Of a stretch of 64,000 bases of DNA, positions 7,888 to 63,338 are shown in pieces. Each line of letters opens with the position of its first letter. Position 1 is the first letter of the stretch. The notes under the pieces were generated by a model, which was not told where the DNA came from, did not search any database, and worked only from the letters and a program-made list of their open reading frames with translations. The DNA comes from Oscillospiraceae bacterium. Lineage in GTDB: Bacteria > Bacillota > Clostridia > Oscillospirales > Oscillospiraceae. The stretch spans positions 105,875 to 169,874 of the forward strand of contig JAFTXW010000016.1 of NCBI GenBank assembly GCA_017461445.1, in the 5' to 3' direction. Position numbers and translations under genes: made by a program.

Positions 7888-7927
7888 AAAACTGCCTGTG
7901 GAATGCTCCACAGGCAGTCGTTTTTTA
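7886..7927. terminator. bidirectional terminator between CHAP hydrolase and trpS
   Basis: A 12-bp stem ACTGCCTGTGGA/TCCACAGGCAGT has T runs on both sides in the appropriate orientation. The trpS stop codon lies within the right-hand flank. Confidence 0.9.
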
Positions 7928-8953
7928 CTTGGCAACAAAGCCCACCTTCTTATATACCTTGCGCAGGGTCTTTTCCGCCACATAGCTGGCCTTCTGGGCA
8001 CCGTCCCGGTAGACAGATTCCAGGTAGCCCTTATCCTTCATCAGCCGCAGGGATTCCTCCCGGATGGGGCGCAGGTGCTCCACGACAGCTTCGCCGACCA
8101 CGGGCTTGAACTTGCCGTAGCCGCAGCCGACGAACTCGTTCTCGATTTCCTCGTAGGTCTTGCCGGTGACGGCGGAGTAAATGGTCATCAGATTGGCAAC
8201 ACCGGGCTTGTTCTCCTTGTCGTAGCGGACGCAGTTTTCCGTATCGGAATCGGTGATGGCCCGCTTGAACTGCTTCATAATGACAGTGGGATCGTCCATC
8301 AGCAGGACACGGCCGGTGTCCTCGTTCTCGGACTTGGACATTTTGGCGGTGGGGTTGGTCAGGCTCATGATCCGGGCGCCCACCTTGGGAACGAAGGGCT
8401 CGGGGATCTTGAACACATCGCCGTAAATACCGTTGAAGCGGCGGGCAATCACATGGGTCAGCTCCACATGCTGCTTCTGATCCTCACCCACGGGCACCAG
8501 ATCGGGCTGGTACAGCAGGATATCGCCGGCCATCAGGCTGGGATAGGTAAAGAGGCCCGCGTTGATGTTGTCGGCATTCTTGGCGGACTTATCCTTGAAC
8601 TGGGTCATGCGGCTCAGCTCGCCGAACATGGAATAGCAGTCCAGCACCCAGCCCAGCTCCGCGTGCTGGTGGACATGGCTCTGGATGAACAGGGTGTTCT
8701 TTTCGGGATCCAGGCCGCAGGCGATGTACTGGGCCAGCTGCTCCAGCGTACGGCGGCGCAGGTCCGCAGGATTCTGGCGGACAGTGATGGCGTGAAGGTC
8801 AGCCATAAAATAGAAGCACTCGTACTGGTCAGCCCGCTCCGCCCAGTTCTTCACGGCACCCAGGTAACTGCCCAGAGTCAGATCGCCGGAGGGCTTGATG
8901 CCGGAAAGCATACGCTTCTTGGGCTGGTTGGTTTCGGTGATGATTTCGCTCAT
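7925..8953 (-). CDS. trpS: tryptophanyl-tRNA synthetase
   Basis: The protein is 342 residues from ATG 8953 (GAGGAAA upstream). It joins tryptophan to tRNA-Trp in the cytoplasm. The class I HIGH region is the variant PSGDLTLGSYLGA (about residues 18-30), and KMSKSENEDTG is the KMSKS loop (about 205). Length and motifs match bacterial TrpRS. It lies 46 bases behind the methyltransferase gene with no hairpin between them, so both are probably transcribed together from the promoter at 10045-10017 and share the leader that carries a Trp-containing uORF. Confidence 0.95.
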   Translation of the reverse strand: MSEIITETNQPKKRMLSGIKPSGDLTLGSYLGAVKNWAERADQYECFYFMADLHAITVRQNPADLRRRTLEQLAQYIACGLDPEKNTLFIQSHVHQHAELGWVLDCYSMFGELSRMTQFKDKSAKNADNINAGLFTYPSLMAGDILLYQPDLVPVGEDQKQHVELTHVIARRFNGIYGDVFKIPEPFVPKVGARIMSLTNPTAKMSKSENEDTGRVLLMDDPTVIMKQFKRAITDSDTENCVRYDKENKPGVANLMTIYSAVTGKTYEEIENEFVGCGYGKFKPVVGEAVVEHLRPIREESLRLMKDKGYLESVYRDGAQKASYVAEKTLRKVYKKVGFVAK

Positions 8954-8999
8954 AGGATTTCCTCTTCTTTCCGAAATAATTGAAAACATTTTAACACAG

Positions 9000-9812
9000 T
9001 TACGGGGATTGCGCAAGGGGATTCTTGCGGAATACGTCCAGAATATGGTGGGAAACACCCACCATGTCCGCCCGCTCGCAGATGGTGAAGTGGTAGCGCA
9101 GGTACAGTTTGAACAGTTCCTTCTCCATTTCATCGATGGCAGTACGCATATAATTGGTCGCCATGTCGGTACCCACATAGTGGAGCCGGGTCACGGGGAA
9201 GCCCTGCATCAGTTCGTCAATGTCCTCTTTTCGGTAAAGCTGGAACAGCTCGGCGGGGTCAGAGGAGGCCTTGAAGGTCTCCATATCCACCAGCTCCATG
9301 TACCGCTGTTCCCGGAGCATTCCCCGGCCGAAGCAGTATTGCACCATGGTGGCATCGTTGCCGCAGTAGGCCGCAAAGATCACACCGCCGGGCTTTGTCA
9401 CCCGGATAGCTTCGGACAGGGCCCGGTGCTGCTCCTCCACCGTGAACAGGTGGTACATGGGGCCCAGCAGCAGGGTCATATCATAGGTATCATCGGAAAA
9501 CATCCCCAAATCCTTGGCGTTTCCCTGCTGAATGGTGATGTTCTCCCCCGGCTGGGTATTCTGTTTGAAAATCTCAATGTTGTGTTCCACCAGCTCCACA
9601 GCGTCTACCGTATAGCCCTTCCGGGCCAGGGTATGGCTGTACCGGCCCGTCGCTGCGCCGATCTCCAGGACGCGCATACCGGGCTGCAGATACTTTTCGA
9701 TGTAGCGCATAGTTGTCAAAAATTCCACGCTGCCGTGCTTCGAGAGCAATCGGCTGTCCTCGTCGTAGCCGGAATAGTAGTCCGTCAGTGCTTTCAGGGT
9801 TTCCATTTTCAT
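9000..9812 (-). CDS. class I SAM-dependent methyltransferase behind an attenuator leader
   Basis: The protein is 270 residues from the start at 9812 (AGGAGG upstream). SAM-binding motif I is VLEIGAATGRYSHTLA (about residues 49-64). The acidic motif II is DAVELVEHN, and YDMTLLLGPMYHLF and VTKPGGVIFAAY are the post-I and motif IV-type strands. The C-terminal 100 residues are helical and probably substrate-specific. The substrate is unknown; proteins like this are annotated as general small-molecule or RNA methyltransferases. The start codon follows a terminator-like hairpin by about 20 bases, so expression depends on antitermination in the leader. It is followed directly by trpS. Confidence 0.85.
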   Translation of the reverse strand: MKMETLKALTDYYSGYDEDSRLLSKHGSVEFLTTMRYIEKYLQPGMRVLEIGAATGRYSHTLARKGYTVDAVELVEHNIEIFKQNTQPGENITIQQGNAKDLGMFSDDTYDMTLLLGPMYHLFTVEEQHRALSEAIRVTKPGGVIFAAYCGNDATMVQYCFGRGMLREQRYMELVDMETFKASSDPAELFQLYRKEDIDELMQGFPVTRLHYVGTDMATNYMRTAIDEMEKELFKLYLRYHFTICERADMVGVSHHILDVFRKNPLAQSP

Positions 9813-9831
9813 ACCTCCTAAAAATAAAAAT

Positions 9832-9865
9832 CGGTGTAAGCCAACAGAAAAGCCAGCTTACACCG
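9832..9865 (-). promoter_or_regulatory. attenuator: intrinsic terminator in the methyltransferase-trpS leader
   Basis: On the minus strand, CGGTGTAAGC (9865-9856) pairs perfectly with GCTTACACCG (9841-9832) and is followed by ATTTTTATTTTT, immediately before the AGGAGG of the methyltransferase. A second copy of GCTTACA at 9920-9914, inside the leader uORF, can pair with the same TGTAAGC (9862-9856) and would then prevent the terminator from forming. Confidence 0.75.
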
Positions 9866-9886
9866 TTACATTCCCAATATGTGCGT

Positions 9887-9988
9887 TTATTCCCGCAAAT
9901 CTGAGCATGACAATGTAAGCCCGTCCCAAGGCCAAAAAGCAGGAACGAACTGCGCTGCGGGATATGCAAAAGCGTTGCAGTTGAACAT
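9887..9988 (-). CDS. 33-residue leader peptide (uORF) with two Trp codons
   Basis: The ATG at 9988 has GGAGGG seven bases upstream and lies about 20 bases after the predicted transcription start. The peptide begins MFNCNAFAYPAAQFVPAFWP and ends WDGLTLSCSDLRE. Trp codons 19 and 21 lie directly before the GCTTACA segment that can act as anti-terminator. A ribosome at the stop codon would cover that segment, while one waiting at the first Trp codon would leave it free. The geometry fits classical tryptophan attenuation. The peptide itself need have no function. Confidence 0.65.
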   Translation of the reverse strand: MFNCNAFAYPAAQFVPAFWPWDGLTLSCSDLRE

Positions 9989-10016
9989 TGTCTTACCCTC
10001 CGCAAAGATTTTTCTT

Positions 10017-10045
10017 ATGGTAACACCGAAAAATGGGAATGTCAA
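10017..10045 (-). promoter_or_regulatory. promoter of the leader-methyltransferase-trpS unit
   Basis: On the minus strand, a perfect TTGACA (10045-10040) is 17 bases from TACCAT (10022-10017). Confidence 0.7.
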
Positions 10046-63177: not shown

Positions 63178-63206
63178 TTGACAAACGCACCCTCATCTGT
63201 TAATAT
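63178..63206 (+). promoter_or_regulatory. promoter of rplJ-rplL
   Basis: Perfect TTGACA (63178-63183), 17 bases, then TAATAT (63201-63206). Confidence 0.8.
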
Positions 63207-63209
63207 ATA

Positions 63210-63322
63210 CGAGTTGCCAAAGACAGCAGGTTCCGCAAGGAGTAAGTCCTGCCGAGGTGCGCTTAACTGTTTTGATTGTTTGCGTGTCTTTCTGTCTTCT
63301 GGCAGGAAGACACTTTTTTATT
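63210..63322 (+). promoter_or_regulatory. L10 leader (ribosomal protein L10 autoregulatory RNA)
   Basis: The segment CCAAAGACAGCAGGTTCCGC, then AAGGAGTAAGTCCTGCCGAG, matches the L10-binding leader found before rplJ in Firmicutes. A terminator-like hairpin (GTGTCTT, 63284-63290, with AAGACAC, 63307-63313, then a T run) sits just before the rplJ ribosome site, allowing attenuation when L10-L12 is in excess. Confidence 0.88.
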
Positions 63323-63338
63323 TTCGGAGGTGAAAATT

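Follow-up and report, generated by a model that had tools for sequence, protein, structure and literature searches.

The stretch of DNA analysed here, called the window below, comprises 64,000 nucleotides from an Oscillospiraceae bacterium (assembly GCA_017461445.1, contig JAFTXW010000016.1, positions 105,875 to 169,874). Our subject is one region of it, where a short leader open reading frame (ORF) containing tryptophan (Trp) codons and an intrinsic terminator stand ahead of a methyltransferase gene, which is itself followed by trpS. A first-pass annotation had taken this region for a possible tryptophan attenuator of a methyltransferase-trpS operon. All elements of the leader, the methyltransferase gene and trpS lie on the minus strand; they are given below together with the four RNA segments, numbered 1 to 4, of what appears to be an attenuator switch.

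10045-10017, minus strand: sigma-70-type promoter, TTGACA-17-TACCAT, with TG ahead of the second hexamer
9996-9986, minus strand: segment 1, the start region of the leader ORF, which complements the 3' half of segment 2 (from the fold and covariation)
9988-9887, minus strand: leader ORF of 33 codons, peptide MFNCNAFAYPAAQFVPAFWPWDGLTLSCSDLRE, with a GGAGG ribosome site
9934-9932, minus strand: Trp codon 19, conserved in many relatives, 12 nt ahead of segment 2
9928-9926, minus strand: Trp codon 21, lineage-specific and found in few relatives
9922-9905, minus strand: segment 2, GGGCTTACATTGTCATGC, inside the leader ORF; the 5' half is the partner of the terminator 5' arm, and the 3' half that of segment 1
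9865-9852, minus strand: segment 3, the terminator 5' arm (from the terminator scan and covariation)
9845-9832, minus strand: segment 4, the terminator 3' arm, followed by a T run (from the terminator scan and covariation)
9812-9000, minus strand: gene of a class I S-adenosylmethionine-dependent methyltransferase with a CmoM-like predicted fold, lying behind the attenuator
9016-8988, minus strand: trpS promoter-like sequence TTGCGC-17-TAAAAT, overlapping the methyltransferase stop codon and also found at trpS loci without the methyltransferase
8953-7925, minus strand: trpS, a neighbour and not an evident target of the switch

All the elements that the first-pass annotation had read from the letters were found in their place. 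The promoter, the 33-codon ORF with its ribosome site and both Trp codons are present, the first ATG of the methyltransferase gene lies 20 bases beyond the terminator, and trpS follows, with no terminator listed between the two genes by the scan of the window. The GCTTACA sequence after the second Trp codon is there as well, but the gap is of 5 bases, not 6. Two elements had escaped notice, namely the promoter-like sequence at 9016-8988 and the pairing of segment 2 with the leader start region. The terminator (9865-9832) is a 14-pair stem, G-U pairs included, which contains the perfect 10-bp core described earlier. Taken as a whole, the leader RNA folds at -65.4 kcal/mol vs -52.8 +/- 4.05 kcal/mol for dinucleotide shuffles (z -3.1), and it beats 200 of 200 of them. 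The promoter scan gave 3 promoter-like sites vs 1.8 expected in shuffles, and the leader promoter match is weak by itself.

At gathering level, Rfam produced no match at the window leader and no T-box match in the window that could point to a T-box leader of trpS; the sole match at this level is a ribosomal protein L10 leader (RF00557, 57.9 bits) at 63199-63328 on the plus strand. When six leader loci were compared with Rfam at E up to 1, nothing was found at the leaders, and three matches fell elsewhere in the loci. As a separate observation, a DUF3800-I RNA (RF02969, 91 bits) lies at positions 5239-5345 of L092, the locus of a relative.

Relatives of the methyltransferase were taken from the window's genus (present in 40 of 136 genomes at E 1e-30) and from contigs of named genomes (66 loci, 33 of them used in alignment A1), with flanks of 1.5-3 kb, shorter at contig ends. 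Removal of identical upstream regions left 74 distinct ones, 73 from relatives of at least 50% identity plus L091 at 40%. A leader ORF of the same layout is present in 60 of these 74 (the ORFs of L050 and L086 were chosen by hand, not automatically).

The pairing of the four segments was assessed by counting compensatory changes in 64 of 80 leaders (14 CCTC-type leaders, L094 and L207 were omitted), with 1000 shuffles of whole partner segments, uncorrected for relatedness, as the null. For 1:2 there were 34 compensatory cells vs 14.0 +/- 2.8 in the shuffles, and for 3:4 there were 87 vs 24.1 +/- 5.9, neither count being reached by any of the 1000 shuffles; for 2:3 the count was 14 vs 8.5 +/- 1.8, which 1 shuffle in 1000 reached. 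Compensatory changes thus strongly back pairings 1:2 and 3:4, and modestly back 2:3. Paired cells amount to 83.5% for 1:2, 92.4% for 2:3 and 93.3% for 3:4, as opposed to at most 54.1% when partners are slid by 1-3 bases, and 2:3 pairs form in 79 of 79 leaders folded without the terminator 3' arm, as in a growing transcript (-26.4 kcal/mol for the window), but these percentages and antiterminator folds are partly built in, because segments 2 and 3 also served to recognise the leaders. In ten leaders of a divergent group both partners of 1:2 have changed in concert, with GAGGTA inside the ribosome site facing TACCTC in segment 2. The nucleotides of segment 2 are kept across reading frames (frame 0 in 48 leaders, frame 2 in 10 and frame 1 in 2) and are therefore constrained as RNA. 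The attenuator logic proposed by the first-pass annotation, in which the segment that follows the Trp codon has two possible partners, is in this way supported by covariation: a leader ORF is followed by a mutually exclusive antiterminator and terminator, as in trpL-type attenuators, with the role of translation being our inference. Many leaders, for example L131 and L142, carry CTCTTTTT directly after segment 2. The T run therefore trails the 1:2 hairpin, and this hairpin might itself pause or end transcription.

The position of the Trp codon was likewise as the first-pass annotation had supposed. Such a codon starts 10-12 nt upstream of segment 2 in 41 of the 60 methyltransferase leaders, and in 47 of 60 a Trp codon lies within -1 to +2 codons of this site; this is the placement by which a trpL-type attenuator frees its antiterminator segment on stalling. 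A ribosome with that codon in its A site covers little beyond the first bases of segment 2, and the spacing fits a ribosome that pauses while this codon occupies the A site. Ten WLAQ-type leaders (L081-L088, L093 and L097) form a type of their own: they share a conserved WLAQ(Y/H)D stretch, and their 1:2 pairing is of another kind. In 7 of them the next gene, judged by eye, codes for a phosphodiesterase-type protein some 370 residues long, which Pfam confirms in one case. With these ten set aside (0 of 10 have Trp at the site), Trp occupies the site in 44 of 47 methyltransferase leaders vs 2 of 19 leaders before other genes (Fisher p 7e-11, uncorrected for relatedness).

These other genes encode GNAT acetyltransferases, GNAT-methyltransferase fusions, PNP_UDP phosphorylases, other methyltransferases and a small protein that matches no Pfam family, which we read as kinase-like from its P-loop. 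Two of the GNATs gave NCBIfam matches, well below cut-off, to RimJ/RimL-type and antibiotic acetyltransferases. In a number of leaders that precede other genes the backbone is that of some methyltransferase leaders, for example NAVDNKSGN, although most lack the Trp. His stands one codon beyond the Trp site in 9 of 13 GNAT leaders vs 8 of 57 methyltransferase leaders, and the exact motif P-x-H-T-(V/I) is found in 5 of 13 vs 0 of 57. At L201 / L156 (G083:C81) the beginning of the first ORF resembles the second methyltransferase type and its end the kinase-like protein, as though a deletion had fused two genes; because of this beginning, the kinase-like label of the leader is uncertain.

The gene next to the methyltransferase could be found in 38 of 57 leader-bearing loci. 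By eye, these genes are 23 GNATs, 7 phosphodiesterase-type genes, 2 nucleoside phosphorylases, 3 trpS and 3 others; Pfam agrees with the assignment in six examples, one of which is a phosphodiesterase / nucleotide pyrophosphatase. As to the methyltransferase itself, NCBIfam offers no curated equivalog and only generic families match. Against the CmoM family (NF008264) it scores 20.1 bits, the cut-off being 366, and is thus not assigned to it. No known rRNA resistance methyltransferase such as AviRa appears among 15 PDB sequence matches or the best 50 of each fold search, a result that excludes nothing. EmtA is described, in the accessible parts of PMC3812183 and PMC9749270, as an evernimicin-resistance enzyme.

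The switch was also sought independently of the methyltransferase. A search of the genus (136 genomes) for the segment-2 pattern with at most one mismatch gave 47 sites (31 exact) against 8 for the reversed control. RNA model R1, built from 31 of 79 leaders, found 37 sites in 31 of the 136 genomes and no further gene class: by reading, 20 lie before the methyltransferase and 15 before other enzymes, one (L155) has trpS alone behind it, and one is at a contig end. Beyond the genus, the exact pattern matched 9 of 400 family genomes, and a class-wide scan with at most one mismatch matched 72 of 391. Thirty loci from the latter, inspected by reading, held no convincing leader, nor did the exact segment-2 site in G237; G170, with two sites, and G381, with one, do have real leaders.

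Relatives of the methyltransferase sit in distant hosts too, in a Treponema metagenome-assembled genome (L079, 54% identity) and in Petroclostridium (L067, 62%), with no leader found, and this suggests transfer of the gene between lineages. The relative in Enterococcus raffinosus (L130, 27%) has no such leader either. Carriage of the methyltransferase by mobile elements was considered and rejected: plasmid records gave one match at E 1e-30, the Subdoligranulum record L129, which has no leader in the 420 bases upstream, and 28 matches at 1e-5, 4 of which cover 80% of the query; phage records gave one match at 40%, and viral contigs none. It needs to be added that at L010 / L038 the leader ORF meets no stop codon ahead of the methyltransferase gene but continues into it in frame, which may be an assembly error or real.

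Comparison of sequences makes it probable, in our view, that ribosomes in the leader control transcription of the methyltransferase gene by attenuation, with a translation antibiotic as the likely inducer, the methyltransferase as a likely defence and trpS as a neighbour. In such a scenario, a ribosome that does not stall would clear the leader ORF, segments 1 and 2 would pair, and segments 3 and 4 would form the terminator, ending transcription before the methyltransferase gene. If the ribosome stalled with the conserved Trp codon in its A site, segment 2 just ahead of it would stay free and could pair with segment 3; the terminator would then be broken and the methyltransferase made. The inducer would be an antibiotic that arrests or starves ribosomes at Trp codons, either by direct stalling or by depletion of charged tRNA-Trp, and the methyltransferase, often in an operon with GNAT acetyltransferases, would serve as defence against it. 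A drug which stalls ribosomes at Trp codons or depletes Trp-tRNA is the inducer that seems to fit best, and it is the gene set behind the switch that makes us think of defence against translation antibiotics rather than of tryptophan economy.

Several observations weigh against this interpretation. No leader is seen in 14 of the 74 upstream regions (those of L044 and L045 are too short for a decision). Four loci (L071, L072, L080 and L196) keep the switch without Trp, and the ten WLAQ-type leaders have Trp 33-39 nt away instead. The leader peptides are under weak purifying selection at most, with dN/dS of 0.42-1.07 in six overlapping groups. The predicted fold of the methyltransferase is closest to the tRNA enzyme CmoM, a likeness which does not show resistance. 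As to the pairings, one 2:3 column is unpaired in 31 of 64 leaders, and for the four outer 1:2 columns this figure is 19 to 27; 44 of 1000 shuffles match the number of 2:3 pair types, and segments 2 and 3 were registered by consensus similarity.

The most obvious rival is the classical tryptophan attenuator, in which Trp shortage would lower charged tRNA-Trp, stall the ribosome and raise the methyltransferase and, by readthrough, trpS. On one hand, the Trp codon does stand at A-site distance from segment 2, and the leaders of the gltX-trpS group are richer in Trp: seven of them (L010, whose ORF runs on, is excluded) have 2, 3, 2, 2, 2, 1 and 2 Trp codons, a mean of 2.0, vs 1.03 in 40 other methyltransferase leaders. 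This excess amounts to a single event, because the group is one clade. Moreover, at L155 (G082, about 1410-1700) a switch leader, with several codons for Trp, has trpS as its immediate downstream gene, the methyltransferase being absent. Here too the terminator is followed by a sequence resembling a trpS promoter, and the leader may be a relic or a working control of trpS. In Subdoligranulum variabile (L129, 2480-8795), trpS-like and gltX-like genes, named by eye, lie in divergent orientation with the methyltransferase relative 2.7 kb past gltX and, as said, no leader; this arrangement hints at an older neighbourhood. On the other hand, gltX and/or trpS lie beside the methyltransferase in 8 of 74 distinct loci within the flanks covered, all in the window's genus, and of the 77 leaders to which a gene could be assigned, 1 has trpS directly after the switch. 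The switch is linked to the methyltransferase rather than to trpS, and control of Trp supply or of Trp-tRNA charging is not what is seen across the relatives. Among 30 trpS loci of the genus, 3 have the methyltransferase; 23 lack it but have gltX close by, and in the other 4 neither gene is present within the stretch examined.

It also appears that trpS has its own promoter. A promoter-like sequence, TTGCn-N17-TAnAAT, closely precedes trpS; in 26 of 37 rows (three duplicate pairs included) the best match begins with TTGC, and in several others it is shifted over the same stretch. It is present in 5 of 6 distinct trpS loci that bear the methyltransferase and absent from L036. The methyltransferase cassette would seem to have entered between gltX and this promoter, and trpS need not depend on the attenuator. 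The first-pass annotation had named a separate trpS promoter with no read-through as a case that would speak against it, and part of this is seen: a promoter-like sequence does stand after the methyltransferase gene, its status being that of a resemblance. Another case it had named, leaders which keep the switch and lack Trp, is seen in the four loci listed above and in 17 of the 19 leaders that precede GNAT or other enzymes. Wide conservation extends to a single Trp, not to two. Trp control of trpS was consequently rejected as the principal explanation, and we regard the tryptophan attenuator as unlikely; drug-induced stalling, the alternative that the first-pass annotation had mentioned, would fit the evidence better than a tryptophan circuit.

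It might also be assumed that the leader is a general sensor, induced by any inhibitor which slows ribosomes before segment 2, with the peptide sequence mattering little. Retention of the switch while the residue at the site varies, together with the weak selection on the leader peptides, agrees with this, and the E. coli topAI leader is reported, in the accessible part of PMC12121999, to sense several drug classes. Yet the prevalence of Trp at the site, which as counted above is uncorrected for relatedness, extends over distant methyltransferase leaders outside the WLAQ type and over different frames, and Trp is rare there before other genes; we find this explanation quite unlikely. Finally, the structure could be a plain terminator of some upstream transcript, the small ORF being incidental. 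Intergenic intrinsic terminators are common, but the upstream gene gltX is divergent, and leader, segment 2 and terminator recur together with compensatory changes, which makes this idea very improbable.

Going back to attenuation by stalled ribosomes, a broader version of the proposal may be put forward, tentatively and with the chances rather against it. The four-segment switch would be a constant module, in which sensor codons and enzyme are exchanged together, each sensor reporting the stalled or uncharged aminoacyl-tRNA that results from a matching antibiotic, and the enzymes being the matching defence. Trp would then mark the methyltransferase, and His one codon further the GNAT acetyltransferases. 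Candidate drugs would be, for example, a nucleotide-like synthetase inhibitor or an A-site drug, against which an acetyltransferase, a methyltransferase, a nucleoside phosphorylase or a nucleotide pyrophosphatase could act, and the Trp-rich leaders beside trpS would place the drug's target gene in the same location.

Leader-peptide attenuation as a kind of regulation is well known. In E. coli trpL, a leader ORF with Trp codons is coupled to exclusive pairings, 1:2 and 3:4 as opposed to 2:3. The window switch shares this plan, but it stands before a methyltransferase gene and not before Trp biosynthesis, its segment 1 is the start region of the leader and not the Trp codons, and there is usually one Trp codon. 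An orthosomycin-sensing leader, said to have been described by Mangano in 2022 (Nat Chem Biol), reportedly arrests in a manner dependent on the incoming aminoacyl-tRNA, and its ORF may control a resistance gene; this would be a precedent, by analogy, for direct drug stalling at Trp codons. If that leader and the present one are the same, the methyltransferase part is already known.

Like the erm, tlrB and bmrCD type of control, the present system has a leader ORF and, on comparative support, an RNA rearrangement ahead of the gene. One close parallel is tlrB (yxjB) of B. subtilis, which according to the accessible part of PMC6851288 is tylosin-inducible, a stall with a critical A-site residue preventing termination. 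Leader peptide, terminator and methyltransferase are common to both, as may be an A-site residue critical for the stall, which for the present leader is our proposal. By the same part of that source, tlrB differs in its RYR motif, its 9-residue peptide, a hairpin that sequesters the Shine-Dalgarno sequence of the resistance gene, a stalled ribosome which itself covers the terminator base, and its enzyme, RlmAII; in the window leader the site is Trp, the peptide is longer and the antiterminator is pairing 2:3. The bmrCD and mef/msr(D) leaders, as far as the accessible parts of PMC4191407 and PMC4335068 go, are also cases of ribosome-mediated transcription attenuation of resistance genes, but they serve transporters and are different leaders. 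The smtA motif was considered and set aside; in the accessible part of PMC11109978 it is a different RNA, confined to Thioalkalivibrio. Within the open-licence literature, covered mostly through listings and with subscription papers excluded, we recognised no description of this leader or of a constant switch with exchangeable sensor codons and enzymes.

The best reading of these comparisons seems to be that stall-inducible transcription attenuators before resistance-like enzymes form a new family. An attractive but poorly supported idea, control of trpS, is thereby corrected. If the proposal is true, both the inducer and the targets of the enzymes become testable, gut Clostridia carry a family of inducible leaders which can be recognised from sequence and which points to resistance-like enzymes that have gone unrecognised, and the sensor codons would tell which step of translation the natural inducer attacks.

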